Positions 41,232-57,645 of a stretch of 64,000 nucleotides of DNA are shown here, piece by piece. The notes below the pieces were generated by a model, which worked only from the letters and a program-made list of their open reading frames with translations, was not told where the DNA came from and did no database searches. The stretch is from the NCBI RefSeq assembly GCF_000382185.1, contig NZ_KB907784.1, positions 1,575,633-1,639,632 of the forward strand, written 5' to 3'. Position 1 is the first letter of the stretch. Each line of letters opens with the position of its first letter. A program made the translations under genes and the position numbers. The stretch comes from Bordetella sp. FB-8 (lineage in GTDB: Bacteria; Pseudomonadota; Gammaproteobacteria; Burkholderiales; Burkholderiaceae_B).

Positions 41232-41582
41232 CTACGGCGCGGCGGCCGGCGAGGGTGGCATGCAGACCGTCGAGCGGGTCAGAAAGCGCACCTCCCGGCC
41301 GTTGTCCAGGGAGAACATGCCGCCGCGGCCCGGCACCACGTCGATGATCAGATCCGTGTGGCGCCATGCGGCGTGCTGCGCGGCGCCAATGTAGAACGGC
41401 GCCCCGCCGATCTCGCCCAGCAGCACGTCGCCGTCGCCCACCAGCAGATCCCCTTGCGCATAGCACATGGGGGAGCTGCCGTCGCAGCAGCCGCCCGATT
41501 GATGGAACATGATCGGGCCGTACTGCGCCGTCAGTTCCGCGATCAGCGCGAGCGCGGCCGGTGTCGCGGCGACGGTGCTCAT
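41232..41582 (-). CDS. DUF779-domain protein
   Basis: A 116-aa protein with the conserved cysteine-rich FHQSGGCCDGSSPMCY motif (residues 27-42) of DUF779, a family almost always beside an AldB/AcoD-type aldehyde dehydrogenase. The cysteines suggest metal or cofactor binding; the function is not established. Its ATG overlaps the dehydrogenase stop by one base (TGATG), so it is translationally coupled as the second gene. Confidence 0.9.
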   Translation of the reverse strand: MSTVAATPAALALIAELTAQYGPIMFHQSGGCCDGSSPMCYAQGDLLVGDGDVLLGEIGGAPFYIGAAQHAAWRHTDLIIDVVPGRGGMFSLDNGREVRFLTRSTVCMPPSPAAAP

Positions 41583-43111
41583 CAGAAGAATCCGAGTTTC
41601 TTCGGGCTATAGCTCACCAGCAGATTCTTGGTCTGCTGGTAGTGATTGAGCATCATCTGATGGTTTTCGCGGCCGATGCCCGATTGCTTGTAGCCGCCGA
41701 AGGCCGCATGCGCGGGATAGGCGTGATAGCAATTGGTCCAGACACGTCCGGCCTTGATGGCGCGGCCCATGCGATAGCAGGTGTTCGCGTCGCGCGACCA
41801 GACCCCGGCGCCCAGACCGTACAGCGTGTCGTTGGCGATGGACAGCGCTTCTTCAGTGTCTTTGAAGGTCGTGACCGACACCACGGGGCCGAAGATCTCC
41901 TCCTGGAAGATGCGCATCTTGTTCGTTCCCTGGAACACCGTGGGCTGGACGTAATAGCCGCCCTTGAGGTCGCCGTCCAGATCGGCGCGCGCACCGCCCG
42001 TCAGCACCTTGGCGCCTTCCTGCTTGCCGATATCGAGATAGGAGAGGATTTTCTCCAATTGCTCGCTGGAGGCCTGGGCGCCGATCATGGTGTCGGCATC
42101 GAGCGGGTTGCCCTGCTTGATGGCTTTGACGCGCGCCACGGCGCGTTCCATGAAGCGATCGTAGATCGAGGCCTGGATCAAGGCACGGCTGGGGCAGGTG
42201 CAGACCTCGCCTTGGTTGAGCGCGAACATCACGAAGCCTTCGATGGCCTTGTCCAGGAAATCGTCGTCTTGCGCCGCCACGTCGGCAAAGAAAATGTTGG
42301 GCGACTTGCCCCCCAGCTCCAGCGTGACCGGTATCAGGTTCTGCGACGCGTACTGCATGATGAGACGGCCGGTGGTGGTTTCGCCGGTAAAGGCGATCTT
42401 GGCGATGCGCGAACTCGATGCCAGGGGCTTGCCCGCTTCCAGGCCGAAACCGGTGACGATGTTCAGCACGCCCGGGGGCAGCACGTCGGCGATCAGCTCG
42501 GCGAAGATCATGAGCGTGAGCGGCGTCTGCTCGGCCGGCTTGATCACCACGCAGTTGCCGGCTGCCAGCGCGGGCGCCAGCTTCCAGGCGGCCATGAGCA
42601 GGGGGAAATTCCACGGAATGATCTGGCCGACCACGCCCAGCGGCTCCTTGAAGTGATAAGCCACGGTGTCGTTGTCGATCTCCGACAGCCCGCCTTCCTG
42701 CGAGCGGATCACCGAGGCGAAGTAGCGAAAGTGATCCGCCGCCAGGGGCAGGTCGGCGGCGCGCGATTCGCGGATGGGCTTGCCGTTGTCCCAGGTCTCG
42801 GAGGTTGCCAGCAGTTCGAGATTGGTTTCGATGACGTCGGCGATGCGGTTGAGCAGGCGCGAGCGTTCCGTCACGGAGCTCGAACCCCAGGCCGGGGCGG
42901 CCTTGTGCGCCGCGTCCAGCGCCGCGTCGATGTCGGCCGCGCAGGAGCGCGCGTGGCGCGATAGGACTTTGCCGGTCACCGGCGTGACATTGTCGAAGTA
43001 CTGGCCGTCGGCCGGCGCGCGCCAGCGGCCGCCGATGAAGTTCTCGTACTGTTTCTTGATGTCGATGGGCGAGCCATAGACGCCCGGAGCGATGCGGGTT
43101 GCGGTATCCAT
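41582..43111 (-). CDS. NAD(P)+-dependent aldehyde dehydrogenase (AldB/AcoD type)
   Basis: A 509-aa ALDH. The catalytic cysteine is in [15 protein letters not shown] and the general-base glutamate in [23 protein letters not shown] and [13 protein letters not shown] are cofactor-region motifs. The CTCPSR signature is typical of acetaldehyde/AcoD-AldB enzymes used in ethanol or acetoin metabolism. The start at 43111 gives [15 protein letters not shown], the family N-terminus. A sigma54-type promoter lies 54 bases upstream, and an AcoR-like activator is divergent. Confidence 0.92.
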
Positions 43112-43164
43112 GCGTGTCTCCTGTTTGTTTGAATGTAGGGAATGAAAGCCCCGCTTCATTCCAT

Positions 43165-43179
43165 GCAATAAGCGTGCCA
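43165..43179 (-). promoter_or_regulatory. sigma54 (-24/-12) promoter of the aldehyde dehydrogenase operon
   Basis: On the minus strand the sequence is TGGCAC-GCTTA-TTGC, matching the consensus TGGCAC-N5-TTGC exactly. Initiation would fall about 40 bases before the dehydrogenase ATG. The neighbouring AcoR-like protein has the GAFTGA loop needed to activate it. Confidence 0.85.
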
Positions 43180-43288
43180 GAGCTTGTGCCGCGTCGCGGC
43201 AGTGATGGACAGCCCATATGCCGCCATGCGAAAGTAAAGACCTCGGCTCCAAGAGCGGTCCGCCTGAACGGCGGATGCGCCAGACAGC

Positions 43289-43303
43289 GTCGCAAAATGC
43301 GAC
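43289..43303. promoter_or_regulatory. enhancer-site candidate for the AcoR-like activator
   Basis: GTCGCA-AAA-TGCGAC is a perfect 6-bp inverted repeat about 110 bases upstream of the -24 element, with a further TGTCGCA half-site at 43319-43325. Position and symmetry fit an enhancer-binding-protein site. Confidence 0.65.
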
Positions 43304-43347
43304 AACGGGCCGAAACAGGTGTCGCAGCACACCGATCGGAGACAGTC

Positions 43348-45276
43348 ATGGCTAACCCCCGAATCCCGCGGCTGGAAAGCGCGCGCCGCCAGTTTCTCGA
43401 ACAGGGCGTTGTGCCCGCCAGCGTTCTCGCCGAACCGATTCTTCGATCCTGGCGCCGTTGCGCCGACATCGGACACGACATGTCTGGCTCCAGCCGCATG
43501 CAGCTGCCCACCCAGGGCGAGTTGCGTGAACTGCGCCAGCGCAACGAAGACCTGCGCAGGTTCGGCCGGCCCATCATGGCGCTGCTGGCGCAAGAGGTGC
43601 GCCAGTCCAGTGGACTGGTCCTGCTTACCGATGCCGCCGGCAGCGTGCTGGATGCCGCCGGCAACGACGCGTTCGCCGATTGTGCCGCCAAGGTATCGCT
43701 CATGCCCGGCGCGCTTTGGAGCGAGTCGGCCGCCGGCACCAACGCCATCGGAACGGCGCTGGTCGAACATCGGCCCATCGAAGTGCGCGGGCATGAACAC
43801 TATTTCGAATCCAACCGCATCCTGACTTGTGCCGCGGTGCCGATTTCCGACCCTCGCGGCCGCACGCTGGGATTGCTGGACTTGTCCGGCCCGGCCGCGC
43901 AAGGCAGCGGCCATGCGCTTGCCCTGGTGACCTGGGCGGTGGACCAGATCGAGCGGCGCCTGTTCGACCAGGACTATGCGCATTGCCTGCGGTTGGCCGT
44001 GCACGATGAGCCGGGCCTGCTCGGCAGCGCGCACGAGGGCTTGTTGGCCTTCGACGGCGGCAGGCTGGTCGCGGCCAACCGGCATGCTCTGCGCCTGCTG
44101 GCCTTGGACGCGAGCGCGCTGGGCGTGTTGTGCTATGAAGATCTGTTCGTCCAGGCTCCGGCCCAGGCGGCCGCGCGCGGAACTTTACGCCGGCTGCACG
44201 GTGCGCTATTGCATGTCCGCCTGGTGCAGTCCGCGTCCGCCGCCGCGCCAAGCCCTGTGTCCGTTCCGGGCGAAGCCGAGCGGGCCGCGGTCCTCGATCT
44301 TGCGCGCGAGTCGCTGCCTGTTCCGCGTCGGGAGGCAAGACCATCCACGTCGGCGCGCCTGTCCCGGCCCGGTGAACCCGCACCCTGGTTCGATGCGGGG
44401 GCGCTGGCCGACCTGGCCCGCGCCGTTCGCCTGCTCGATGCGGGCGTTGCAATACTGCTGCAGGGCGAGACCGGAACGGGCAAGGAAGTCTTTGCGCGGC
44501 AGATGCATGCCCGCAGCGCGCGCGCCGATGGTCCCTTCGTGGCCATCAATTGCGCCGCGCTGCCCGAGAGCCTGATCGAATCCGAGTTGTTCGGCTACGA
44601 GGAGGGCGCCTTCACCGGTGCGCGCAGACAGGGCAGCAAAGGATTGCTGCGCCAGGCGCAAGGCGGCGTGCTTTTCCTGGACGAGATCGGCGACATGCCC
44701 CTGCCTGCGCAGGCCCGCTTGCTGCGCGTGTTGCAGAACCGGGAAGTGACGCCGCTGGGCGGCGCGCGTTGCGTGCCGGTGGATTTCCTGCTGATCTGCG
44801 CCACGCACCGACCCCTGGGGCCGGCCGAGCAGAATGTCTTGCGCGCCGATCTGTACTTTCGCATCGCCGAGTACACGATGTGTCTGCCCGCCTTGCGCGA
44901 TCGCGCCGACCGTGCCCGCATTGTGCAGGCCTTGTGGTCGTCGGGCGCCTTGCCGGCGCACGACGGGCCGGACCTGCCGCAGGAAGTCCTGCAGGCACTG
45001 ACTGCCTACGATTGGCCGGGCAACTTCCGGCAGTTGGTCGCCACGCTGCGCACCTTGCGGGTCCTGGCCGAAACCGAAGGCCAGACGCGGCTGGACATGC
45101 TGCCAGCGGACATGGCGGCGCAGGCGCGCGCGCCCGCCGATCTCAAGGTTCTGACCGATGCCGCGGTGCGGGAAGCGCTGGCTGCGTGCGGCGGCAGCAT
45201 GAGCGGCGCGGCGCGGCGCCTGGGCGTGCATCGCAGCACGCTGTATCGTTGGGCCAAGCCGGCGCGCGCAAAATGA
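43348..45276 (+). CDS. AcoR-like sigma54-dependent enhancer-binding protein
   Basis: Activator of 642 aa. The N-terminal GAF region (~70-210, with ALWSESAAGTNAIGTALVEHRPI) is followed by the AAA+ domain with Walker A GETGTGKE, the sigma54-contact loop GYEEGAFTGARR and Walker B GVLFLDEIGD. The C-terminal Fis-type helix-turn-helix reads GSMSGAARRLGVHRSTLYRW. The ATG at 43348 has CGGAGA upstream. Divergent from the aldehyde dehydrogenase operon, it almost certainly drives the sigma54 promoter there. The inducer is unknown; acetoin or alcohols are family examples. Confidence 0.93.
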   Translation: MANPRIPRLESARRQFLEQGVVPASVLAEPILRSWRRCADIGHDMSGSSRMQLPTQGELRELRQRNEDLRRFGRPIMALLAQEVRQSSGLVLLTDAAGSVLDAAGNDAFADCAAKVSLMPGALWSESAAGTNAIGTALVEHRPIEVRGHEHYFESNRILTCAAVPISDPRGRTLGLLDLSGPAAQGSGHALALVTWAVDQIERRLFDQDYAHCLRLAVHDEPGLLGSAHEGLLAFDGGRLVAANRHALRLLALDASALGVLCYEDLFVQAPAQAAARGTLRRLHGALLHVRLVQSASAAAPSPVSVPGEAERAAVLDLARESLPVPRREARPSTSARLSRPGEPAPWFDAGALADLARAVRLLDAGVAILLQGETGTGKEVFARQMHARSARADGPFVAINCAALPESLIESELFGYEEGAFTGARRQGSKGLLRQAQGGVLFLDEIGDMPLPAQARLLRVLQNREVTPLGGARCVPVDFLLICATHRPLGPAEQNVLRADLYFRIAEYTMCLPALRDRADRARIVQALWSSGALPAHDGPDLPQEVLQALTAYDWPGNFRQLVATLRTLRVLAETEGQTRLDMLPADMAAQARAPADLKVLTDAAVREALAACGGSMSGAARRLGVHRSTLYRWAKPARAK

Positions 45277-45349: not shown

Positions 45350-46276
45350 TCACGCCCGGCGCGCCACGCGCATGGCAGGGCCGGTCGTCGGCCGCATCTG
45401 CAGCATCAGGTCGTACAGCTGTTGCGCGGCTGGCGAGAGGCTGGCCCCGCGGCGCCGGATCAGACAGATCTTGCGTACCAGCCCCGGCATGCTGAGCGGC
45501 CGGCTCACCAATCCCGGGCGGTCCAGTTCGTACAAGGTCAGGGCGGGTACGACAGTTATGCCCAGCCCCGCGGCAATCATGCCGGTCAGCGTGGCCAACT
45601 GTTCGACTTCCAGAACGATATTCATAGGCATGGGATGGAAGGCGCGCTCGAGCTGCATTCGCACGCTGTGCGAACGGGCCAGATGAATGAAGGGGGCGGC
45701 GGCGAGGTCGCGCGCGCTGATGCGGGGCCGGCTTGCCAGCGGATGATCCTGCCGGCATACGAGGTGGAAATGGTCGTTGCACAGCAGTTTGGATTCCAAG
45801 TCCTGAGCTGGCGTGTCCGACGAGGCCAGGGCGAAGTCCACGCTGTTGGTGCGCACCAGCTCCAGGCTGGGCGCAGAGAGTGTATCCGCCAGTCCCAGGT
45901 CGATGCCGGGATGGCGCTGGCGAAATTCGGCAAATACTCCAGGCAGCCAGCCGGCGGCGATCGAAGGCAGAGCGGCGATCGAGACGCGGCCCTTGCGCAA
46001 GGTGGCATAGCCGCGGAATTCGTCGATCATCGCGTCGAACTGCCCCACCATGCGGCGTGCCGATTCCTCCAGCATGCGCCCTTGCGGGGTCAACTCGACG
46101 TTGCGGGTGTCGCGGTCGAACAGCCGCGCACCCAGCGTGTCTTCGATGGCGCGGATCAGCGAACTGAACGCCGATTGCGACAAATGACAGACTTGCGCGG
46201 CGCGCGTGAAACTGTGCTGGTCGGCCAGCGCAAGGAAGGCGCGTAGATCGCGGCTAGACAGATTTATCTCTTTCAT
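45350..46276 (-). CDS. LysR-family regulator, divergent from the TRAP/RLP cluster
   Basis: Regulator of 308 aa with helix-turn-helix FLALADQHSFTRAAQVCHLSQSAFSSLIRAIEDTLGARLFDR and a standard effector-binding domain. It is divergent from the TRAP transporter-RuBisCO-like-kinase cluster, with 115 bases between starts, and is therefore its likely regulator. The intergenic sequence is AT-rich near the LysR start. The effector would be the transported acid or an intermediate, by context. Confidence 0.9.
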   Translation of the reverse strand: MKEINLSSRDLRAFLALADQHSFTRAAQVCHLSQSAFSSLIRAIEDTLGARLFDRDTRNVELTPQGRMLEESARRMVGQFDAMIDEFRGYATLRKGRVSIAALPSIAAGWLPGVFAEFRQRHPGIDLGLADTLSAPSLELVRTNSVDFALASSDTPAQDLESKLLCNDHFHLVCRQDHPLASRPRISARDLAAAPFIHLARSHSVRMQLERAFHPMPMNIVLEVEQLATLTGMIAAGLGITVVPALTLYELDRPGLVSRPLSMPGLVRKICLIRRRGASLSPAAQQLYDLMLQMRPTTGPAMRVARRA

Positions 46277-46391
46277 CGCTTAATCGATTTGAATTTTCTG
46301 TTTTTCCAATTTTAGTCCTGACGGTAAATTGTGCGAACTGAAGAGGCGACGGCCGGTAGGCGGCACATCGCCCGTTTTCAAGGAGACACCC

Positions 46392-47405
46392 GTGTTCGCC
46401 AAACGTCGCACATTTCTGAAGACGCTCGCCGCGTCGCCTGCCTTGTACCTGGGCGTGCCGCGGTTCGCCCGCGCCGCGCCCGAGTTTGTCTACAAGTACG
46501 CCAACAACCTGCCGATGTCGCATCCGCTGAACGTGCGTGCGCAGCAGGCGGCCGACCGCATCAAGAAGGAGTCCAACGGCCGGCTGCAGATCAATATCTT
46601 CCCCAACAACCAGTTGGGCGGCGACACCGACATGCTGACCCAGGTACGGGCCGGCGCCGTGGAGCTGTACACGCCGTCGGCGCTGGTCATCGCCACGGTC
46701 GTGCCCGAGGCGGCCATCAGTGCCGTGGGGTTCGCGTTTTCCAACTACGACCAGGTGTGGGCAGCCATGGACGGCAAGCTGGGCACCTTCGTACGCCAGC
46801 AGATCGGCAAGTCCCATCTGCACACCTTCGAGAAAATGTGGGACAACGGCTTTCGCCAGGTCACGACCAGTTCCAAGCCCGTAAAGACCGCGGCCGATCT
46901 GCACGGCGTCAAGATCCGGGTGCCGGTCAGTCCCTTGAGCATCTCCATGTTTAAGGCGCTGTCCTCGTCGCCGACCAGCCTGCAATTTAGCGAGCTGTAC
47001 ACGTCGCTGCAGACCCACATTGTCGATGCGCAGGAGAATCCGCTGGCCATCATCCAGTCGGCCAAGCTGTACGAGGTGCAGAAGTACTGTTCCCTGACCA
47101 ACCATATCTGGGACGGCTATTGGTTCGTCGCCAATCAGCGCGCCTTCGACAAGCTGCCTGCCAATCTGCGGACGCTGTGGGAAACCGCGTTCAACGACGC
47201 AGGCATGAAGCAGCGCGAAGACTTGCGCAAGATGAACGAGTCGATCCAGTCCGATCTGCAGAACAAGGGCATGGTGTTCAACACGACCCAATCCGACAGT
47301 TTCCAGGCTGCGCTGCGCAATGCCGGGTTCTACAAGGAGTGGCGCGGCAAGTTCGGCGAACAGGCCTGGAGCCAGCTGGAAGGCGCCGTCGGAAAGCTGG
47401 CCTGA
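46392..47405 (+). CDS. TRAP transporter solute-binding protein (DctP type)
   Basis: Periplasmic binding protein of 337 aa from the GTG at 46392, which follows AGGAGA by 5 bases; the frame continues upstream without a Shine-Dalgarno. The signal is Tat-like (FAKRRTFLKTLAASPALYLG) and ends ARA-APEF. The DctP fold motifs YKYANNLPMSHPLNVRAQQA, VKIRVPVSPLSISMFKALSS and LYTSLQTHIVDAQENPL are clear, with the conserved arginine (IRVP) that binds the ligand carboxylate. It probably imports an organic or sugar acid for the RuBisCO-like/kinase pathway downstream. Confidence 0.92.
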   Translation: MFAKRRTFLKTLAASPALYLGVPRFARAAPEFVYKYANNLPMSHPLNVRAQQAADRIKKESNGRLQINIFPNNQLGGDTDMLTQVRAGAVELYTPSALVIATVVPEAAISAVGFAFSNYDQVWAAMDGKLGTFVRQQIGKSHLHTFEKMWDNGFRQVTTSSKPVKTAADLHGVKIRVPVSPLSISMFKALSSSPTSLQFSELYTSLQTHIVDAQENPLAIIQSAKLYEVQKYCSLTNHIWDGYWFVANQRAFDKLPANLRTLWETAFNDAGMKQREDLRKMNESIQSDLQNKGMVFNTTQSDSFQAALRNAGFYKEWRGKFGEQAWSQLEGAVGKLA

Positions 47406-47409
47406 AGCG

Positions 47410-49275
47410 ATGTGCGCGGCTTCAACCTGCCAGAGCAGCGGCGCCGGCAAGTCAGGCCTGGCAGCCGGTTGCAGCCGCGTGCTCGGCCGGATGGTCGAGC
47501 TCGTCGCCGCCGTGCTGGTATTGGCCGAGATCGTCGTGCTGTTTTCAGGTGTCCTGGCGCGGTATGTGTTTCACAATCCATTGGTGTGGTCCGACGAACT
47601 GGCCGGCCTGTTATTTCTCTGGCTGTCCATGCTGGGTTCGGCGGTGGCCTTGCGCCGCGGTGAGCACATGCGCATGACCGTGGTGGTCGCGCGTGTTTCT
47701 CCCGGCGTGCGCGCGCTGCTTGACGTGATGGCCATCGGGGCGTCGATCGCCTTTCTGACGCTGATCCTGCCGCATGCGTTTGAGTTCGCCGCCGAAGATG
47801 CCCTGGTGTCGACGCCGGCGCTCGGTATTTCCAGTGCCTGGGGTTCCTGCGCGCTGCCGGCCGGTTTCGGCCTGATGCTGCTGTTCGGATTGTTGCGCCT
47901 GGCCGATGCCGCAAGGCCGCGCGATATCGCCGTGGCCCTGGCGGCGGTGGTTGCGGCGGTGCTGCTGTTCTGGTTCGTCCGGCCCTTGTTGCTGCCGTTG
48001 GGCAAGTTGAACCTGCTGGTCTTTTTCGTCGGTGTCGTATCGGTAAACGTCTTTCTCGGCGTGCCGATCGCATTCTCATTTGCGCTGGCTACCTTTGGCT
48101 ACCTGGCGCTGGCTACGCACACACCGCTCTTGGTGATGGTGGGCCGGATCGACGAAGGCATGTCGAGTCTGATCCTGCTGGCCGTACCCATGTTCGTCCT
48201 GTTGGGCCAGCTCATGGAGATGACGGGCATGGCGCGCGCCATGGTCGGGTTCCTGGCCAGCCTGCTGGGCCATGTGCGCGGCGGATTGTCCTATGTGCTG
48301 ATTGGGTCCATGTATCTGGTCTCGGGCATTTCGGGCTCCAAGGTGGCCGACATGGCCGCGGTGGCCCCGGCGCTGTTTCCCGAGATGAAGCAGCGCGGCG
48401 CGGCGCCGGGCGATCTGGCGGCCCTGTTGTCCTGCACGGGCGCACAGACCGAGACCATCCCGCCCAGTATCGTGCTCATTACCATCGGGTCGGTGACCGG
48501 CGTGTCGATCGCTGCCCTGTTTACCGGCGGCATGTTGCCGGGCGCCGCGCTGGGATTGACGCTGGGACTGATCGTGTGGGTGCGCAGCCGCAGCCAGACC
48601 CCGAGCCAGGCGCGCCGCGCATCCACGGCCCAGATCGGGCGCCGGCTGGTCAAGGCTTTGCCGGCGCTGGTGCTGCCCGTCGTAATCCGCGCTGCCGTGG
48701 TCGAGGGCGTGGCCACGGCCACCGAAGTGTCGACGATAGGAATCGTGTATTCGGTGCTGGTGGGACTGTTGCTCTATCGCTGCTTTGACTGGAAGCGGTT
48801 GCCCGCTATGCTGGTCGATACCGCCGCGCTGTCCGGCGCGATCCTCTTCATTGTCGGTGCGGCCACGTCCATGGCCTGGGGACTGACACAGTCGGGCTTC
48901 TCGAGCGATCTGGCAGCATGGATGAAGGCGCTGCCGGGCGGTTCCGTCGGCTTCCTGCTGGTATCCATCGCAGTCTTTGTTCTCCTGGGCAGCGTCTTGG
49001 AAGGCATTCCGGTCATTGTGCTGTTCGGGCCGCTGCTTTTTCCCATCGCACGCCAGATGGGCGTCAATGAAGTGCACTATGCGATGGTGGTGGTTCTCTC
49101 CATGGGTCTGGGCCTGTTCGCGCCTCCGTTCGGCGTGGGCTTCTACGGCGCCTGCGCCATCAGCAAGGTCGATCCGGACGAGGCGATGCCGTATATGTGG
49201 GGCTATCTGGCAGCCCTGGTCGCAGGGGTGTTCCTGGTGGCCTTCATCCCTTGGATTTCTACGGGTTTTCTTTGA
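47410..49275 (+). CDS. TRAP transporter fused permease (DctQM)
   Basis: Inner-membrane permease of 621 aa combining the small DctQ part (four helices, about residues 25-190, with LARYVFHNPLVWSDELAGLLF) with the large DctM part (about 195-621). DctM hallmarks are GVPIAFSFALATFGYL, SGISGSKVADMAAVAP and EGIPVIVLFGPLLFPIA. The fused arrangement is known but less common than separate Q and M genes. The start ATG 47410 lies 4 bases after the SBP stop. It is sodium-driven uptake by family. Confidence 0.9.
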   Translation: MCAASTCQSSGAGKSGLAAGCSRVLGRMVELVAAVLVLAEIVVLFSGVLARYVFHNPLVWSDELAGLLFLWLSMLGSAVALRRGEHMRMTVVVARVSPGVRALLDVMAIGASIAFLTLILPHAFEFAAEDALVSTPALGISSAWGSCALPAGFGLMLLFGLLRLADAARPRDIAVALAAVVAAVLLFWFVRPLLLPLGKLNLLVFFVGVVSVNVFLGVPIAFSFALATFGYLALATHTPLLVMVGRIDEGMSSLILLAVPMFVLLGQLMEMTGMARAMVGFLASLLGHVRGGLSYVLIGSMYLVSGISGSKVADMAAVAPALFPEMKQRGAAPGDLAALLSCTGAQTETIPPSIVLITIGSVTGVSIAALFTGGMLPGAALGLTLGLIVWVRSRSQTPSQARRASTAQIGRRLVKALPALVLPVVIRAAVVEGVATATEVSTIGIVYSVLVGLLLYRCFDWKRLPAMLVDTAALSGAILFIVGAATSMAWGLTQSGFSSDLAAWMKALPGGSVGFLLVSIAVFVLLGSVLEGIPVIVLFGPLLFPIARQMGVNEVHYAMVVVLSMGLGLFAPPFGVGFYGACAISKVDPDEAMPYMWGYLAALVAGVFLVAFIPWISTGFL

Positions 49276-49288
49276 GACAGGAAAAATC

Positions 49289-49828
49289 ATGAGTCGATTT
49301 TTTGGAGAAGTACGCCAGTTGGGGTACGTGGTGCACGATATACATAAGGAAATGCGTCACTGGAGCGACGTGCTGGGCGTAGGCCCGTGGTACTACGCCG
49401 ACCGCGTGCCGGTGAAGAATTTCCACTACAAGGGTAGGCCCTCGCCCATCCAGACGTCGGTGGCCCTGGCCAATTCCGGACCGCTGCAAATCGAACTCAT
49501 CGAGCAGCGCAACGACGCGCCGTCCATGTACAAGGACTTCCTGGATGCGGGCCGCACGGGATTGCAACATCTGGCCTACTGGACCGAATCATTCGAGGCC
49601 GACCTCGAACGCCTGCAGGCTCAGGGTCTGGTTGTCGGCATGAGCGGCGAGGTCGGCGAGAAGGGGCGCTACGTGTATTTCGAGACCGAAACGCATCCCG
49701 GTACGGTGGTCGAACTATCCGAAGTCGCCGGGCCGAAAGGCAGGCTGTTCAAAATAATCCGCGAGGCTTGCATCGGCTGGGACGGGAGCGACCCCGTACG
49801 GCCCTTCCCCGACCTGGGTACCCTGTAA
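49289..49828 (+). CDS. VOC (glyoxalase/bleomycin-resistance/dioxygenase) family protein
   Basis: A 179-aa protein with one full two-module VOC fold. It begins MSRFFGEVRQLGYVVHDIHK, and metal-ligand candidates are a His in YVVHDI, Glu in LQIELIEQ, His in GLQHLAYW and Glu in TVVELSEV. This is the His/Glu/His/Glu spacing of the glyoxalase-4/epimerase-like subgroup (methylmalonyl-CoA epimerase-like). It lies 13 bases after the TRAP permease and 3 bases before the RuBisCO-like gene, so it probably acts in the same pathway, perhaps as an epimerase, isomerase or lyase. The reaction is unknown. Confidence 0.85.
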   Translation: MSRFFGEVRQLGYVVHDIHKEMRHWSDVLGVGPWYYADRVPVKNFHYKGRPSPIQTSVALANSGPLQIELIEQRNDAPSMYKDFLDAGRTGLQHLAYWTESFEADLERLQAQGLVVGMSGEVGEKGRYVYFETETHPGTVVELSEVAGPKGRLFKIIREACIGWDGSDPVRPFPDLGTL

Positions 49829-49831
49829 TCC

Positions 49832-51097
49832 ATGACTGACGCTGCGCGCGCCGAATTCGAGGCGACCTATCTCATCGAGACTCCGTATCCGCCGGACCAG
49901 GCGGCCCAGGTGCTGGCCGGTGAACAGTCCAGCGGCACTTTCGTGCGCGTGGCGGGCGAGACTGACGATCTGCGCGCGCGTTCGCGGGCACAGGTGACGG
50001 CCATACGCGAGTTCGAGCCGGTGGCCCAGCCCAGCTTGCCTAATGCTTTTCTCGACCGGCGCAAGGTTGCGGGCCCGTATCGCCGCGCCCAGATCACCGT
50101 GCGCTTTCCGATCGAGAACGTCGGCGCCAACCTGCCCACGCTCGTCGCCACGGTGGCGGGCAATATCTACGACCTGGGCGAGATGACCGGCGTGAAGCTG
50201 ATGTCGCTGCGTCTGCCTCCCGACTATGTGCGCGCCTTCGATGCGCCGCGCCAGGGCGTGGCGGGCACGCGCGCGCTGACGGGCATCGCCGCCGGTCCCA
50301 TCCTGGGCACCATCATCAAGCCCAACGTGGGAATGACGCCCGAGCAGACCGCCGCCACCGTGGCCACGCTGTGCCAGGCCGGCGTCGATTTCATCAAGGA
50401 CGATGAAGTCATGGCCAATCCGCCGAATGCGCCGCTGGCGGCGCGCGTGGCGCAGGTCATGAAAGTGATCGAGGCGCACGCGCAGCGCACTGGCCGCAAG
50501 GTGATGTATGCCTTCAATATCTCGGACGAGACCGACGCCATGCGCCGTAATGCCGAGATGGTCGAGGCGGCCGGCGGCACCTGCGTGATGGCCAGCCTGA
50601 ATTGGTGCGGCTACGGCGCGATACAGTCGCTGCGCCGCGCCACGCCGCTGGCATTGCACGGGCATCGCAACGGCCTGGCGGCGATGGCGCGCCATCCCAT
50701 GCTGGGCATCGATTTTCATGCCTATCAAGTGCTGTGGCGCCTCGCCGGCGTCGACCAGCTGCACGTCAACGGACTGGGCGGCAAGTTCTACGAAGCCGAC
50801 CAGAGCGTGGTGGCGTCCGCGCGGGCCTGCCTGCAGCCCTTGGCCGGCGGCGACGCGATAATGCCGGTGTTCTCGTCGGGGCAGTGGGCGGGCACGGTGC
50901 CGGCTACTTTCGATGCGGTCGGCAGCGACGATCTGATCTTTCTATCCGGCGGCGGCATACTCGGCCATCCGCACGGTCCGGCCGCGGGCGTGCAGAGCAT
51001 ACGCGATGCCTGGGAGGCTGCGCGCAGCGGCGTGGCGCTGCCGCGCCACGCCCAGACTCATCCCGCGCTGGCGGCCGCATTGGACTTCTACGGCTGA
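49832..51097 (+). CDS. RuBisCO-like protein (form IV), OiaX/OiaC-type candidate
   Basis: A 421-aa member of the RuBisCO large-chain family. The KPxxG motif is IIKPNVGMTPEQ (Lys163), and the carbamylation lysine with Mg ligands is DFIKDDE (Lys189, Asp191, Glu192). HGHRNG and the phosphate loop SGGGILGHPHG are kept, and a loop-6 lysine is visible in GLGGKFYE (Lys318). Metal-dependent enolisation or decarboxylation chemistry is thus possible. Known relatives include 3-oxo-isoapionate-4-phosphate decarboxylase (OiaC) and transcarboxylase/hydrolase (OiaX). The adjoining DUF1537 kinase would make the phosphorylated substrate. It is unlikely to be a CO2-fixing RuBisCO, as no small subunit or phosphoribulokinase is present. 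Confidence 0.9.
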   Translation: MTDAARAEFEATYLIETPYPPDQAAQVLAGEQSSGTFVRVAGETDDLRARSRAQVTAIREFEPVAQPSLPNAFLDRRKVAGPYRRAQITVRFPIENVGANLPTLVATVAGNIYDLGEMTGVKLMSLRLPPDYVRAFDAPRQGVAGTRALTGIAAGPILGTIIKPNVGMTPEQTAATVATLCQAGVDFIKDDEVMANPPNAPLAARVAQVMKVIEAHAQRTGRKVMYAFNISDETDAMRRNAEMVEAAGGTCVMASLNWCGYGAIQSLRRATPLALHGHRNGLAAMARHPMLGIDFHAYQVLWRLAGVDQLHVNGLGGKFYEADQSVVASARACLQPLAGGDAIMPVFSSGQWAGTVPATFDAVGSDDLIFLSGGGILGHPHGPAAGVQSIRDAWEAARSGVALPRHAQTHPALAAALDFYG

Positions 51098-51108
51098 ATT
51101 CTCATCGC

Positions 51109-52473
51109 ATGTCCTCCCCGACCGCACCCGACACCTCGGCGCGTCGTCCGCGCATCGCCTATTACGGCGATGATTTCACGGGCGCCACCGACACGCTGTC
51201 GGTGGCCGTGCGCGGCGGCTTGCGCGCCGCACTGTTCTTGCAAACGCCCGGCCCGGCCGATCTGGCGGCCTTCGGCGAGCTCGACTGTGTGGGCCTGGCT
51301 GGCGGCGCCAGGTCCTGGTCGCCGCAGGAAATGGACCTCAGGCTGCCGGACATCTATGCGGCGCTGGCGGCTACCGGCGCCCAGGCCGTGCACTACAAGA
51401 CCTGTTCCACCTTCGACAGCGCGCCGCATGTGGGCAGCATAGGAAGGGCCGTGCGCCTTGGCTTGCGCGCATTGGGGCAGTCTACGGCATATATCGTCGG
51501 CGGCCAGCCGAATCTGGGCCGCTATTGCGCGTTCGCCACGCTCTATGCCCGCGCCGGCCAGGGCGGCCGGGTGTATCGCCTGGACCGGCATCCCACCATG
51601 CGCTGCCATCCCGTCACGCCGATGGACGAGGCCGATCTGCGCCTGCACCTGGGACGGCAGGGCCTGGAAGGGGTCGTCTCCTTCGCGCTCGACAAGTTGG
51701 CCGGCGCCGCGCCCGCGGCGTTGGACGCCATGCTGGCGGACTTGCCCGCGGCCGTGCTCTTTGATGTGCTGGGCGACGAGCATCTGGCTGCCATCGGGCG
51801 GATGCTTTGGGGCCGCATTGCACGCAGCGCCGACGGTCCGGCCTTGCTGGTGGGACCCAGCAGCGTCGAGCAGGCGCTCCTGACCGCCTGGCCAGGACAG
51901 ACGCGGGAAACGCAAGCGGCCGTACAGCGGCCCGCACCGGTGTCCGCCGAACAGGTTTTCATCGTGGCGGGCAGCCGGTCGCCGGTGACGGCGCAGCAGA
52001 TCCGGCGCGCCCGCGACGATGGCTTCGCGCTGCTGGACGTCGATCCGCGGCGCGTGGTGCAGGAGGCCGGCGAGAATGACGGCGGACCATACTGCCGGGA
52101 ACTGGCGGACAAGGTGGTGCAGTGCCTGCGCACCGGACGCAGCGTAATAGCCCAGACGACCCTGACGGAAACGGCGCCAGCCGGCAGCGGACCCAAACTG
52201 GCCGCCGCGGCGGGCCGGTTGATGCACCAGGTATTGCGGCGCCATCGGCTGGCCCGGGTGGGTTTTGCCGGCGGCGATACGTCGAGTCTGGCGATCCAGG
52301 CCTGGAACGCGCGCGCGCTCACGCTGGCTTATACGCTGAGCCCTGGCGTGGCCGTTTGTGCGGTGCATTCGGACGATGCCGTCCTCAATGGCGTCGAGCT
52401 CATGCTCAAGGGCGGTCAGATGGGGCCGCAAGATGTGTTCGAGGCACTGCGCCAGGGGCGCCGTGCCGCTTAG
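51109..52473 (+). CDS. DUF1537 / four-carbon acid sugar kinase family protein
   Basis: ATP-dependent sugar-acid kinase of 454 aa. The N-terminal domain has the family motif YYGDDFTGATDTLSVAVRGG (about residues 18-37). The C-terminal nucleotide-binding domain includes VAGSRSPVTAQQIRRA and VGFAGGDTSSLAIQAW. Known members phosphorylate C4 acids (erythronate, threonate) or 3-oxo-isoapionate (OiaK). It starts 11 bases after the RuBisCO-like gene. The substrate here should be a branched or short acid imported by the TRAP system, by context. Confidence 0.92.
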   Translation: MSSPTAPDTSARRPRIAYYGDDFTGATDTLSVAVRGGLRAALFLQTPGPADLAAFGELDCVGLAGGARSWSPQEMDLRLPDIYAALAATGAQAVHYKTCSTFDSAPHVGSIGRAVRLGLRALGQSTAYIVGGQPNLGRYCAFATLYARAGQGGRVYRLDRHPTMRCHPVTPMDEADLRLHLGRQGLEGVVSFALDKLAGAAPAALDAMLADLPAAVLFDVLGDEHLAAIGRMLWGRIARSADGPALLVGPSSVEQALLTAWPGQTRETQAAVQRPAPVSAEQVFIVAGSRSPVTAQQIRRARDDGFALLDVDPRRVVQEAGENDGGPYCRELADKVVQCLRTGRSVIAQTTLTETAPAGSGPKLAAAAGRLMHQVLRRHRLARVGFAGGDTSSLAIQAWNARALTLAYTLSPGVAVCAVHSDDAVLNGVELMLKGGQMGPQDVFEALRQGRRAA

Positions 52474-52476
52474 GCT

Positions 52477-53271
52477 TTAGGCCGTGCCCATCATGCGCGC
52501 CAGTTCCATGCCCGGTTCAGGCGCGCGCATGAAGGCCTCGCCCACCAGGAACGCATTTACGCCGTTCTCGCGCATGAGTTTGACGTCCTCCGGCGCGAGG
52601 ATGCCGCTTTCGGTCACCACGCGCTTGCCCGCGGGCACGCGCGGCAGCAGGTCGATCGTGTTCGAGAGCTTGGTTTCGAAGGTGCGCAGATTGCGGTTAT
52701 TGATGCCCAGCAGCGGTGTCTTCATGCTCAGCGCGATGTCGAGTTCGGCCGGGCCGTGTACTTCGACCAGCACATCCATGCCCAGGCCCATGGCCACGTC
52801 TTCGAAGTCGCGCAACTGCGCCGCGTCGAGCGCGGCCACGATGAACAGCACGCAATCGGCGCCCATGGCGCGGGCCGAGACAATCTGGTAGGGATCGATG
52901 ATGAAATCCTTGCGCAGCACCGGCAGCGGGCAGGCCGCGCGGGCCATGCGAAGATTGTCGTGCGAGCCCTGGAAGAACTGTACATCGGTCAGCACCGACA
53001 GGCAGGCCGCGCCGTGTGCGGCGTAGGACGCCGCAATCTCGGCCGGATTGAAGTTTTCGCGCAGGATGCCCTTGGAGGGCGAGGCCTTTTTGATCTCGGC
53101 GATCACGCCGGGCAGGCCGCGCGCGATCTTGTTCTCGATGGCTTGCGTAAAACCGCGCACGTCCTGTCTGGCCAGCGCTTCGCGCAGCAATTCGGACTCG
53201 CTGCGCATCTGGCGCGCCGTGGCTACCTCTTCGGCTTTGATTGTCAGAATCTTTGCGAGGATATCGTTCAT
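52477..53271 (-). CDS. trpC: indole-3-glycerol phosphate synthase
   Basis: Tryptophan-pathway enzyme (264 aa) that closes the indole ring of CdRP. The TIM-barrel motifs are [43 protein letters not shown] and [10 protein letters not shown], with VTESGI near the end. It is monofunctional, with no PRAI domain. It overlaps the trpD stop by ATGA. Its 3' end lies 3 bases from the convergent kinase gene. Confidence 0.97.
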
Positions 53272-54302
53272 TTTTTAAATGTCTGGGTATAGGCGCAGAA
53301 TTTTTCGAGCGAGGCCCGGGCTGCGCCGTTGGCGATGAGTTCGAAGGCCAGCTTCAGGGCCTCGGGAATGTCGCTTGCCTTGTTGCCCGCGTAAATGGCC
53401 AGGCCGGCGTTGAACGCGACGATGTCGCGCGCTGGGCCTTCGACATTATTTAGCGCTTCCATGACAAGTTGACGAGATTCTTCGCGATTGGACACCTTGA
53501 TGCCGCGGTTGGACATCATGGATAGTCCGTAGTCCTCGGGGTGGATCTCGTACTCGTGCACCGCACCGTCTTTGAGTTCACCCACCAGGGTGGCCGCGCC
53601 CAGCGATGCCTCGTCCATGCCGTCCTTGCCGTGCACGATCAGCACGTGACGGGAACCCAGGCGCTGCAGAACCCTGACCTGGATGCCGACCAGGTCGGGA
53701 TGAAACACGCCCATCAACTGGTTGGCGGCGTTGGCCGGGTTGGTCAGGGGGCCCAGGATGTTGAAGATGGTGCGCACGCCCAGTTCCTTGCGCACGGCCG
53801 CCACGTTCTTCATGGCGCCGTGGTGGGCGGGAGCGAACATGAAGCCGATGCCGGTGGCCTGCAGGCATTCGGCCACCTGTTCGGGACTGAGTTCCATATT
53901 GGCGCCCAAGGCTTCGAGCACATCGGCGCTGCCTGACGAGGACGAAGCGCTGCGGTTGCCGTGTTTTGCGATAGGCACGCCCGCGGCCGCAGCCACGAAC
54001 ATGGCCGCGGTCGAGATATTGAAGGTGTGGCTGCCGTCGCCGCCGGTGCCGCACATATCGAGCAGATCCTGCGGATTGGGCGTTTCCACCGTGGTGGCGA
54101 ACTCGCGCATCACCTGCGCGGCGGCGGTGATCTCACCTATGGTTTCCTTCTTGACGCGCAGGCCCATGAGCAGCGCGCTGGCCAGCTGTGGCGACATCTC
54201 GCCGCGCATCAGCATACGCATCAGTTCGAGCATTTCGTCGTGAAAGATCTCGCGATGCTCGATGCAGCGCGTCAGGGCTTCGCTGGGAGTGATCAGGGTC
54301 AT
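53268..54302 (-). CDS. trpD: anthranilate phosphoribosyltransferase
   Basis: Transfers phosphoribosyl to anthranilate; 344 aa. Motifs are [20 protein letters not shown] (PRPP binding), [21 protein letters not shown] and [16 protein letters not shown]. The start at ATG 54302 with GGAGC upstream is preferred over the longer frame. It lies 36 bases after trpG and overlaps trpC by ATGA. Confidence 0.97.
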
Positions 54303-54338
54303 GATGGTTGCTCCATGTCTTTTTATGCTTGGCACCGA

Positions 54339-54908
54339 TCAGGCGCGGTATTGTAGGAAATTGCGCAGCATGGCGTGGCCGTGCTCGCTCAGTACGGATT
54401 CAGGGTGGTATTGCACGCCGAAGACGGGCAGCGCCTTGTGGCGCACGCCCATGATGTCGCCGTCGTCGGCCGTCGCCGTCACCTCCAGGCAGTCGGGCAG
54501 GCTGTCCGGGTCGATGGTGAGCGAGTTGTAGCGAATGGCGGTGTAGGGCGAGGGCAGGCCCTGGAATATGTCGGTGCCCTGGTGCGTGATCCGGACTGTT
54601 TTGCCATGCATCACGGTCTGAGCCTGCACGATCTTGCCGCCGTAGGCCGCGCCGATGGACTGGTGGCCCAGGCATACGCCCAGGATGGGAATGCGTCCGG
54701 CAAAACGCTGGATGACGCCTACCGAGATGCCGGCCTGGGCCGGAGAGCAGGGGCCGGGCGAAACGCACAGGTGATCGGGCGCCAGGGCTTCGATTTCGTC
54801 CAGGGTGATCTGGTCGTTGCGTGCGACCCGCACTTCGCAGCCTAGTTCACCGAAATACTGCACGATGTTGTAAGTGAAGGAATCGTAATTGTCGATCATG
54901 AGCAACAT
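54339..54908 (-). CDS. trpG: anthranilate synthase component II (glutamine amidotransferase)
   Basis: Supplies ammonia from glutamine to TrpE; 189 aa. The start [20 protein letters not shown] is diagnostic. The catalytic cysteine is in [12 protein letters not shown], and the His-Glu pair is in [13 protein letters not shown]. It is separated from trpE by 1.1 kb that carries a plus-strand GAF-GGDEF gene, so it may need its own promoter or read-through past an antisense gene. Confidence 0.97.
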
Positions 54909-55006
54909 GCAAGCGCTCCTGGGGTATAAGGTTTTTCGTAGGCAATGTCGTTAAACAAGGACGCCGCGCCACGCATGGCGTCCGATGCGAACTCTGGGAG
55001 ACGTCC

Positions 55007-56011
55007 GTGGTCGATTCCAGTACTCAAGCGATCCACGCCGTGCGTCAAATGCCGCGCGAAGCGGACCGCTTGGCCGCGCTCGCCGACCTGCACGTGACCG
55101 AGGGCGGCCCGGAAGCTTCCTTCGACCGCATCGCCCGCATCGGGCGCGCCGCCCTGCGATTTCCCACGGTGCATATCACGCTCATCACACAGAGTCTGCA
55201 TATTTACAAAACCAGCGGCTCGTCGGCGAGCAACGCGATACCTCGCAACCAGTCCATCTGCAATTTCACCATCCAGGACTACGAACCGCTCATCATTTCC
55301 GATACGCAGCTCGATGCGCGCGTGCGCGACTTTCCGGCAGTGACGGGAGAGGCCAGTGTGCGCTCGTACTGGGGCATGCCCCTGACCACGCGCCGCGGCT
55401 ATAACCTGGGCGCCTTGTGTGCGTTCGATATCGTGCCAAGGCATCCGGCGCAAGCGGACCTGGATATCTTGCGTGACCTGACCCGGCTCACGATGGAATG
55501 CATGGAGCTGCGCGCCCAGGCCACGGTGGACGTGCTCACCGGCGCAGCGTCGCGCCGCGCGCTGCACGAAGAAGGCGACCGCCTGTTCAAGGTGCTGGGT
55601 CGGGAAGAAAAACTGGGCTGCATCCTGCTGGACATCGACCACTTCAAGCTCATCAACGACAACCTGGGCCATGCCAAGGGCGACGAAGTGCTGCGCGACA
55701 TGGTCGTGCTGATGCACAGCGCCCTTCGCAACGACACGCTGTTCGGCCGCGTCGGCGGCGAGGAATTCGTCATTCTGCTGCCCGGGGAGGGACTGGCGGG
55801 AGCCTATGCCGTGGCCGAACGCTTGCGCCGCCTGCTGGAATCGACCCGTGTCGCCGGCCTGCAGGTCACCGCCAGCTTCGGCGTGGCCGAGAGGCTGCCT
55901 GGCGATGGCGCGCTGAACGATATGCTGGCGCGCGCCGACGAGCAGACTTACGAGGCCAAGCGCGCCGGACGCAACTGCACGCGTCCCCTCCTGATGCTGG
56001 CCGAAGGCTGA
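55007..56011 (+). CDS. GAF-GGDEF diguanylate cyclase, antisense inside the trp cluster
   Basis: A soluble 334-aa protein. A GAF domain (~20-170) is followed by a GGDEF domain (~175-330) with the active RVGGEEFVILL site and the Asp-containing LLDIDHFKLINDNLGH. The usual RxxD product-inhibition site reads RNDT, so feedback inhibition may be weak. The start is GTG 55007 with GGGAGA upstream. It lies on the strand opposite trpE and trpG. What it senses is unknown. Confidence 0.92.
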   Translation: MVDSSTQAIHAVRQMPREADRLAALADLHVTEGGPEASFDRIARIGRAALRFPTVHITLITQSLHIYKTSGSSASNAIPRNQSICNFTIQDYEPLIISDTQLDARVRDFPAVTGEASVRSYWGMPLTTRRGYNLGALCAFDIVPRHPAQADLDILRDLTRLTMECMELRAQATVDVLTGAASRRALHEEGDRLFKVLGREEKLGCILLDIDHFKLINDNLGHAKGDEVLRDMVVLMHSALRNDTLFGRVGGEEFVILLPGEGLAGAYAVAERLRRLLESTRVAGLQVTASFGVAERLPGDGALNDMLARADEQTYEAKRAGRNCTRPLLMLAEG

Positions 56012-56045
56012 GTTGGTTTCCATTGCTGTTCGCGTCCCGGGCCGC

Positions 56046-57566: not shown

Positions 57567-57610
57567 GTCGGGTCCAGGTGAGTAGGGTTGTGGCGACCGG
57601 GACATGCCAA

Positions 57611-57645
57611 ACAAAAAGCCCGGTCCTGTTCAGGTTCCGGGCTTG
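57611..57645 (-). terminator. trp attenuator terminator
   Basis: On the minus strand AGCCCGG (57643-57637) and CCGGGCT (57623-57617) form the terminator stem, followed by TTTTGTTT. It lies 25-51 bases after the leader-peptide stop and about 45 bases before trpE. Confidence 0.88.

Follow-up and report, generated by a model that had tools for sequence, protein, structure and literature searches.

Two of the described systems closest to the locus analyzed here contain a RuBisCO-like protein (RLP): the OiaX/OiaK branch of D-apionate catabolism, reportedly described by Carter et al. in 2018, and the D-hamamelose pathway with its RLP oxygenase, said to come from Kim et al. in the same year. The RLP of Xanthobacter autotrophicus carries out transcarboxylation/hydrolysis of 3-oxo-isoapionate-4-phosphate (PMC6302742), an RLP of Ochrobactrum anthropi lies among hamamelose genes and its product yields 3-phosphoglycerate and glycolate (PMC8914248), and known RLP activities are "only a handful," with oxygenation among those listed (PMC10176493). 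The operon found in the window, that is, the whole 64,000-nucleotide stretch of DNA analyzed, is related to, yet distinct from, the known apiose pathway. It resembles the OiaX/OiaK branch in its adjacent RLP and DUF1537 kinase genes and in a putative 3-oxo-acid 4-phosphate substrate. Its likeness to the D-hamamelose pathway, by description and not by sequence, lies in a putative last-step RLP whose products would be close to 3-phosphoglycerate and glycolate, but the genes of that pathway are absent from the operon.

The original prediction described six genes, five of them tightly packed and divergent from a LysR-type regulator, and both the coordinates and the Pfam matches agree with this layout, including the GTG start of the solute-binding protein (SBP) (Table 1). 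The gaps between the five genes, from SBP to kinase, are 4, 13, 3, and 11 bp, and the 3′ end of a convergent trpC (IGPS) gene lies 3 bp past the kinase stop. For the fused permease (QM) we chose 47410 as the start, although our gene-calling script favored 47491. LysR orthologues occupy the equivalent position at L002, L009, L004 to L008, and L131 to L135. A promoter scan returned two sites against a shuffle mean of 1.4, which is no excess, and eight terminator-like sites were found against a shuffle mean of 5.6. Compared with Bordetella genomosp. 13 (L002), dN and dS are 0.069 and 0.54 for the RLP, 0.076 and 0.63 for the VOC protein, 0.144 and 0.59 for the SBP, 0.138 and 0.74 for QM, and 0.198 and 0.84 for the kinase, so all five genes are under purifying selection. 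The RLP is the only one found in its own genome.

Table 1. Features of the operon, its regulator, and selected residues (window positions)
Feature	Coordinates	Strand	Basis
LysR-type regulator	45350..46276	-	Pfam HTH_1 + LysR_substrate (1.1e-47); divergent from operon
Upstream region shared by LysR gene and operon, 115 bp	46277..46391	.	From coordinates
TRAP SBP, DctP family, GTG start	46392..47405	+	PF03480, 1.1e-72
TRAP small/large permease fusion (QM, DctQ-DctM)	47410..49275	+	PF04290 + PF06808
VOC-superfamily enzyme, candidate isomerase/epimerase	49289..49828	+	Glyoxalase_4 (PF13669), 5e-24
VOC Gln10, putative metal ligand	49316..49318	+	Invariant in 25 VOC proteins and 22 further sequences including 3gm5
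VOC Glu69, putative metal ligand	49493..49495	+	Invariant as Gln10
VOC His94, putative metal ligand	49568..49570	+	Invariant as Gln10
VOC Glu142, putative metal ligand	49712..49714	+	Invariant as Gln10
Form IV RLP, VOC-linked subfamily	49832..51097	+	RuBisCO_large (PF00016), 1.3e-70
RLP Asn165, replacing RuBisCO Lys177, clade signature	50324..50326	+	Asn in 33/35 and Ser in 2/35 clade members
RLP Lys189-Asp190-Asp191-Glu192, RuBisCO metal-site motif	50396..50407	+	K189, D191, and E192 identical in 35/35 clade members
DUF1537 (four-carbon acid sugar) kinase	51109..52473	+	PF07005 + PF17042

For comparison we assembled 129 RLP loci with distinct RLPs, picked by similarity as the best 80 of 242 matches of one scan together with chosen regions and plasmid records; the set is a non-random sample with gene calls from our own script, and neighbors were counted within six genes. 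A VOC gene lies immediately upstream of the RLP gene on the same strand at 35 of the 129, which exceeds chance, and all 35 carry the kinase. The importer is of the TRAP type at 29 of them and a PAAT-type (amino-acid-type) ABC transporter at the other six. The VOC protein, first pointed out as an added component, turns out to be a fixed part of the set. As the importer varies and the VOC-RLP-kinase core does not, the VOC protein appears to be part of the chemistry. In the order-level search, all five genomes with a VOC protein matching at 68% identity or higher have its gene beside an RLP gene. Clusters of this type are present in many Alcaligenaceae and Alphaproteobacteria, so the arrangement is widespread and no local oddity. 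Among the entries listed, a literature search found no account of this gene set or its function, most subscription journals being outside its scope, so that one may already be in print.

Genes for ApnO, ApnL, TIM, RpiB, and Asp/Glu-racemase-like proteins were found within six genes at none of the 35 VOC loci. In the same range no locus of the 129 has any two of VOC, ApnO, and the Asp/Glu-racemase-like protein, as if these were alternative entry enzymes in one slot; this mutual exclusion is confounded by kinship among the loci, and at three OiaX loci (L155, L158, and L159) ApnO is present but more than six genes off. The racemase-like gene occurs at 48 loci from Bacteroidota and Verrucomicrobiota and gives at most a weak hint of racemization; three Cys columns are frequent in its products (40, 47, and 45 of 48). 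An SDR gene stands first in the operon at L173 and L253 and 68 to 69 bp past the kinase at L005 and L006, so an oxidation step may be needed in some strains and be encoded elsewhere in others.

The RLP matches RuBisCO_large_N (PF02788, 2.7e-8) besides the domain given in Table 1, and the RuBisCO fold domains with an incomplete catalytic set, Asn165 replacing K177, make it a form IV RLP. In our trees, which are quick searches with a midpoint root, 34 of the 35 VOC-linked RLPs form one clade with L010, a locus without VOC (SH-aLRT 99). The OiaX clade (five rows, support 100) lies apart from it, as do the ApnO-linked RLPs, and an SDR-linked clade stands beside it (SH-aLRT 99 for the grouping). 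The one exception is L166, where a LacI gene and TRAP and VOC genes of the window type accompany an RLP and a kinase that are both of ApnO-linked type; with this swap, a single clade for all VOC-linked RLPs is rejected (p-AU 3.9e-5, the tree having been seen before the test). It is as if the substrates of the two RLP/kinase pairs were interchangeable, at this one locus. The closest solved chain is 3nwr (583 bits), presumably the RLP of Burkholderia fungorum. BLAST with 3NWR places 34 VOC rows and L010 ahead of every SDR or ApnO row, so this structure, titled "A rubisco-like protein" in an entry listing that names no function, is most similar to VOC-clade RLPs.

With RuBisCO numbering assigned by motif, 14 of 15 active-site positions are kept in all 35 clade members, Lys189, Asp191, and Glu192 being what we take for spinach K201, D203, and E204. 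The 15th, K177, is Asn or Ser; nearly all other clades have Ser or Ala there. OiaX keeps 11 of the 15, with Asp, Gly, Gln, and Ala at E60, N123, H327, and K177, and the first three of these are retained in the window RLP. The OiaX model (NF042437) gives the window RLP 461.1 bits and the OiaK model (NF042436) gives the kinase 324.5 bits, both under the cut-off of 700, whereas five of 299 phylum-sample genomes pass the OiaX cut-off at 772 to 786 bits. Given these low scores and the separate RLP clade, the two proteins do not fall within characterized OiaX/OiaK clusters; a place inside them is what the original prediction had named as speaking against it. That prediction is partly supported: both proteins are indeed relatives of OiaX/OiaK outside the curated families, but OiaX is too narrow a comparison, as the residues and the nearest clade favor other RLPs. 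At the OiaX loci (L155 to L160) ApnL, ApnO, TIM, or RpiB genes are found and VOC is not, the reverse of the window operon.

If the ApnO-linked RLPs at loci without TIM or RpiB are of the OiaC type, the X. autotrophicus RLP probably keeps the same RuBisCO residues as the window RLP, a likeness drawn from these loci and not from an OiaC reference sequence; they also carry ApnO, which is absent here. The operon might be a variant of D-apionate catabolism with an OiaC-type RLP, in which 3-oxo-isoapionate or a tautomer is imported and the VOC protein makes 3-oxo-isoapionate without oxidation. The match in catalytic residues to ApnO-linked proteobacterial RLPs, the transcarboxylation/hydrolysis described for X. 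autotrophicus in PMC6302742, and the VOC/TRAP set of L166 with its ApnO-type RLP and OiaK-like kinase (551 bits) agree with such a route. We nevertheless consider it unlikely. The apionate lactonase and oxidoisomerase, already noted as missing by the original prediction, are found neither in the operon nor at any of the 35 VOC loci, and PGDH_C (oxidoisomerase-type) has no match in the window's own genome or in two other VOC-type genomes (G077 and G153), although the same search was positive in five of eight genomes. The kinase is only 37% to 39% identical to ApnO-linked kinases, and the clade-specific changes at A241, T355, N165, and D114 point to a different substrate.

In its catalytic residues and its closest clade, the window RLP resembles the RLPs that yield 3-phosphoglycerate and glycolate more than it does OiaX, a decarboxylase. 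A D-hamamelose/hamamelonate (2-C-hydroxymethyl pentonate) branch, in which an RLP oxygenase would convert 3-oxo-hamamelonate 5-phosphate to 3-phosphoglycerate and glycolate, would accord with the O. anthropi products (PMC8914248) and the listing of oxygenation (PMC10176493, which credits the same study), and with the SDR and hydrolase genes that such a route would need in the nearest SDR-linked clade (L178). The window operon, however, has neither a dehydrogenase nor a lactonase, and we regard this branch as improbable. 

The kinase has the SBD_N (1.9e-45) and NBD_C (5.4e-23) domains and, as DDFTGAT and GGDT, the motifs known as DDFTGA and GG(D/E)T, which place it among DUF1537 kinases; GG[DE]T is found in 35 of 35 VOC-linked kinases and exact DDFTGA in only 23. 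Kinases of ApnO-type loci fall short of the OiaK cut-off too (L164, 589.5 bits; L166, 550.9 bits), so this cut-off alone is not decisive for function. A match to the 3-oxo-tetronate kinase model (133 bits) would fit an unbranched C4 acid, with the VOC protein interconverting 2-oxo- and 3-oxo-tetronate (or epimers), the kinase forming 3-oxo-tetronate 4-phosphate, and the RLP decarboxylating it to dihydroxyacetone phosphate, which requires no more enzymes; otnK and otnC adjoin such a cluster in Cupriavidus (L178). With a far better fit to the OiaK model and no otnC in the window operon, there is little to expect from this reading.

The TRAP system is complete, with a DctP SBP (TIGR00787, 237.8 bits, over the cut-off) and a permease containing both DctM (9.6e-103) and DctQ (9.8e-29) (TIGR00786, 291 bits, over the cut-off). 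The use of TRAP in place of ABC had been read as a mark of a different substrate. This does not hold, since eight ApnO-linked loci have TRAP permeases and six of the 35 VOC loci have ABC importers; we therefore rejected TRAP as a distinguishing mark, and the distinguishing feature of the cluster is the VOC protein. The closest solved chain to the SBP is 4oan (429 bits), whose modeled ligand we take to be (S)-2-acetolactate. A methyl-branched 3-oxo acid analogous to acetolactate (2-C-methyl-3-oxo-tetronate type), cleaved by the RLP to acetate and 3-phosphoglycerate, would accord with that chain. The ligands found for TRAP proteins by the EFI screen include 2-acetolactate, with the structure unnamed (PMC5812351). 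However, in G918, which encodes 4oan exactly, and in three close relatives, the SBP gene has QM and a 549-residue gene as its neighbors (in L245 the latter is an acyl-CoA synthetase) and no RLP, and the window SBP is only about 59% identical to the 4oan type. The acetolactate ligand is thus not transferable, we rejected its assignment to the window SBP, and a methyl-branched substrate seems very unlikely.

The putative metal ligands of the VOC protein, assigned by motif, form a Q/E/H/E set that is isomerase-like. Human glyoxalase I binds its metal through Q, E, H, and E, and extradiol dioxygenases through two His and one Glu (2-His-1-carboxylate); with a single His among Q10, E69, H94, and E142, the VOC protein lacks the latter site. 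It shares fold family and ligand type with the glyoxalase I/methylmalonyl-CoA epimerase group but scores only 24.2 bits with the epimerase model TIGR03081, far under the cut-off of 114.95, and its closest solved chain is 3gm5 (70.6 bits). Paralogues of 50% to 64% identity occur without RLP at 20 loci inspected, with no common pathway among their contexts, so the VOC family is not bound to RLPs. Although such paralogues stand alone in many alphaproteobacteria, a VOC protein outside the carbon path, as a detoxifying or oxygenase-type enzyme co-transcribed by happenstance, is the least credible reading, given its place directly before the RLP at 35 of 35 loci, whichever of the two importer types is present and even where the RLP and kinase have been swapped (one locus), and a metal set unlike that of a dioxygenase.

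The genes, the conserved unit, and the separate RLP clade are observed directly, and from them we infer the steps of a pathway. The reading we favor, held tentatively and at somewhat less than even confidence, is a complete and self-contained catabolic operon for one small acid, with import, isomerization or epimerization by VOC, phosphorylation, and RLP cleavage near 3-phosphoglycerate. The TRAP system would import a sugar acid at the keto-acid level or one isomerization away from it, the first candidate being a C-branched acid resembling apionate or hamamelonate. By proton transfer, the metal-dependent VOC enzyme would isomerize or epimerize it to a 2-hydroxy-3-oxo acid for the enzymes that follow, and the kinase would phosphorylate the terminal hydroxyl. 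The RLP may then form a RuBisCO-type enediolate from the 3-oxo-acid phosphate, an analogue of RuBisCO's 2-carboxy-3-keto intermediate, and break the C2-C3 bond to give 3-phosphoglycerate and a short acid such as glycolate, probably by transcarboxylation/hydrolysis or oxygenation and not by mere decarboxylation as in OiaX. Both products would enter central metabolism with no further dedicated enzymes. As to downstream genes, RpiB has no match in the own genome (control positive in seven of 14 genomes), but a GlcD-like set is present there, at best with 529 bits, under the cut-off of 568. In the neighboring SDR clade, L178 carries genes for enolase, PEP carboxylase, and pyruvate kinase, and L223 one for pyruvate kinase; enolase or pyruvate kinase genes were found at just two of its four annotated loci and at none of the annotated VOC loci. 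The order VOC, kinase, RLP is the proposed one, but the VOC protein could instead act on the phosphorylated intermediate or the RLP product. We are more doubtful that it is a new sugar-acid keto-isomerase/epimerase replacing the apiose/hamamelose oxidoreductases, with the keto acid itself as the nutrient and the 3NWR-subfamily RLP cleaving C2-C3 of the phosphorylated acid to 3-phosphoglycerate by RuBisCO chemistry, either oxygenation or transcarboxylation/hydrolysis.

The RLPs of the VOC clade are common in Proteobacteria, include a solved member in 3NWR, and come with a minimal set of importer, VOC protein, RLP, and kinase, which makes their function directly testable. If the keto-isomerase/epimerase reading is true, the pathway would be a three-enzyme route across proteobacteria, and its substrate would be new as a described nutrient. 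The function of these RLPs would add one reaction to those related to RuBisCO, would show what a RuBisCO site with nearly all of its residues kept does when carboxylation is not its job, and might reveal an acid sugar on which soil, plant, or marine bacteria feed.

The original prediction had given a six-gene layout for this locus, with a TRAP solute-binding protein (SBP), a fused DctQ-DctM (QM) permease, a VOC protein, a form IV RuBisCO-like protein (RLP) and a DUF1537 kinase divergent from a LysR gene, and this layout is borne out by gene coordinates and domain matches. The gaps among the five operon genes are 4, 13, 3 and 11 bp, a convergent trpC-type gene has its 3′ end 3 bp beyond the operon, and dN is far below dS in all five genes between the window and Bordetella genomosp. 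13. A single RLP copy was found in the host genome (4.08 Mb, 99% complete), and the nearest named loci to the window are from Bordetella (L002 and L009), where the flanking aldehyde dehydrogenase/activator pair listed below also adjoins the operon. Within the genus the RLP is patchy, being full-length in five genomes including the host, matched by a 41-residue remnant in genome G176, and not found in at least five.

Features flanking the operon in the window
Feature	Position	Strand	Basis
Aldehyde dehydrogenase and divergent GAF-AAA+-Fis sigma-54 activator, adjoining the operon	41582-45276	- and +, respectively	
trp block	52477-57614	-	trpC by Pfam; trpD, trpG, trpE by eye
ORF with GGEEF motif, between trpG and trpE	55007-56011	+	sequence motif

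RLP loci were drawn from named genomes (the best 80 of 242 matches), from chosen family- and phylum-sample genomes and from 14 plasmid records. Genes were called by script, and 129 loci remained once short loci, duplicate RLPs of identical sequence and those with fewer than 380 residues had been removed. In 35 of these the VOC gene immediately precedes the RLP (gaps of -4 to 66 bp), and all 35 have the kinase. Of the 35, 29 carry a TRAP SBP and permease, and six carry a polar-amino-acid-type ABC permease (L140, L142, L145, L146, L149 and L170). A LacI-type gene is at most six genes away in 22 of the 35 and a LysR-type gene in 18, while ApnO (oxidoisomerase, PGDH_C), ApnL (lactonase), TIM, RpiB and an Asp/Glu-racemase-like gene are absent within six genes from all 35. 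SDR-type genes occur within the same distance in five. In L173 the SDR heads the operon, in L005 and L006 it closely follows the kinase, and in L142 and L145 it is not part of the operon; locus L253, outside the 129, has an SDR 77% like that of L173 in the same place. Two further full clusters (L250 and L251) lie beyond the 35. Named hosts include Bordetella, Achromobacter, Schauerella, Azospirillum, Roseomonas, Roseivivax, Alloyangia, Sulfitobacter, Paracoccus and Neorhizobium. A further group of genes, L252:9827-13135, consists of LacI, SBP, VOC and an MFS efflux-type gene and has no RLP, kinase or TRAP permease; it is perhaps a decayed or rebuilt cluster.

When the 129 RLPs were placed in a quick maximum-likelihood tree, 3 changes accounted for the VOC label, against a shuffled mean of 30.9 (0 of 500 shuffles as low). 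One set unites 34 VOC rows with L010 (SH-aLRT 99), whose 21 kb contain no VOC match. Six SDR rows form a set (98) that, with L168, joins the VOC set at 99, and OiaX, the RLP of the apionate route, forms a separate five-row set (100). The exception is L166 (genome G416), which has a 69% identical VOC, an SBP and permease of the VOC type and LacI; its RLP has L162, L165 and related ApnO/SDR-linked rows as closest neighbours, and its kinase most resembles that of L164 (60%), with 551 bits against the apionate kinase OiaK. A single clade for all VOC rows is rejected (p-AU 3.9e-5, 70-row tree, the group having been named after the first tree was seen). In this one case it looks as if apionate-type genes replaced RLP and kinase inside a VOC operon, which argues for similar intermediates.

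The nearest NCBIfam models to the window RLP and kinase are OiaX (461 bits) and OiaK (324.5 bits), both well under the cut-off of 700. The OiaX cut-off is passed by 5 of 299 phylum-sample genomes (772-786 bits, a single family), and the window RLP and those of eight other genomes in this sample score 379-463. Among the best 120 of 7999 matches in a protein search, the closest RLP relatives form one group at 76-93% identity, followed by a group at no more than 72%. The solved chain 3nwr most resembles the VOC-linked clade. Fifteen RuBisCO catalytic positions (RuBisCO numbering) were matched by motif. Fourteen are kept in 35 of 35 VOC-clade RLPs, of which 33 have Asn and two have Ser at the K177 position. 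OiaX, in contrast, has E60 as Asp, N123 as Gly, H327 as Gln and K177 as Ala; E60, N123 and H327 are also kept in the ApnO-linked, SDR-linked and Bacteroidota sets. Judged by these conserved positions, the VOC-clade RLP is closer to RuBisCO than OiaX is, and cleavage to 3-phosphoglycerate would fit it better than mere decarboxylation. Clade-specific residues, including D114, N165 (the K177 position), A241, G317 and T355, suggest that it acts on a substrate of its own.

The host genome gave no PGDH_C match. The domain was found in 5 of the 8 genomes searched alike, and besides the host the genomes negative for it were G077 and G153, both of the VOC type. It also has no RpiB match, and the best member of its GlcD-like set scores 529 bits, just below the cut-off of 568. 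With this gene content, products such as glycolate and 3-phosphoglycerate are easier to reconcile than a tetrulose phosphate, which would need RpiB. Among solved structures, the window SBP is closest to 4oan (429 bits), reportedly modelled with 2-acetolactate. The exact 4oan gene (L245) and three close relatives (L246-L248) belong to another TRAP system, next to a QM permease and a gene of 549 residues, which in L245 encodes an acyl-CoA synthetase. As these genes adjoin no RLP, 2-acetolactate, named among TRAP-protein ligands in a review (PMC5812351), is no evidence on the ligand of the window SBP.

Other RLP loci differ in content. The five true OiaX loci (L155-L160 minus L157) have both ApnL and ApnO along with sugar ABC genes, and four of them also TIM/RpiB genes. 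Many others combine RLP and kinase with ApnO, lack TIM and RpiB, and may be of the transcarboxylase/hydrolase type; eight of these have TRAP permeases. In the SDR-linked clade neighbouring the VOC set, pyruvate kinase was found in L223, and L177 and L221 have no enolase, PEP carboxylase, pyruvate kinase or otnK/otnC. Also in this clade, a Cupriavidus pinatubonensis plasmid cluster (L178) adds to its SDR-linked RLP and kinase a PGDH_C gene, otnK/otnC and genes for enolase, PEP carboxylase and pyruvate kinase. In 48 loci the RLP/kinase pair has nearby an Asp/Glu-racemase-like gene (PF01177 in a representative); these are mostly of Bacteroidota and Verrucomicrobiota (e.g., L163 and L012); we know of no function for this gene set.

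The VOC residues Q10, E69, H94 and E142 are invariant in 25 orthologues and 22 further sequences including 3gm5. The isomerase human glyoxalase I has Q/E/H/E as its metal set. The same four ligands are conserved in VOC paralogues (51-64% identity) at 20 loci without RLP (L287-L306).

Related known routes exist for apionate and hamamelose. Published work covers the apiose gene cluster (PMC11747546), the hamamelose RLP and its products (PMC8914248) and the range of RLP activities (PMC10176493), and describes the A. radiobacter K84 RLP as a decarboxylase and that of X. autotrophicus as a transcarboxylase/hydrolase (PMC6302742; see also PMC5788505, PMC7486775 and PMC10173188). The literature searched yielded no account of the VOC/RLP/kinase gene set. 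The proposed pathway, in which the product of the kinase, made from a putative acid substrate, would be cleaved by the RLP, is sound in outline.

The operon type is real and conserved. Counting six genes on each side, the 129 loci comprise VOC (30), VOC+SDR (5), ApnO (21), ApnO+SDR (4), racemase-like (45), racemase-like+SDR (3), SDR near the RLP/kinase pair (10) and none of these (11). VOC, ApnO and the racemase-like gene never occur two at a time in one locus, which suggests that the three are alternative entry enzymes, although kinship alone could give part of this pattern.
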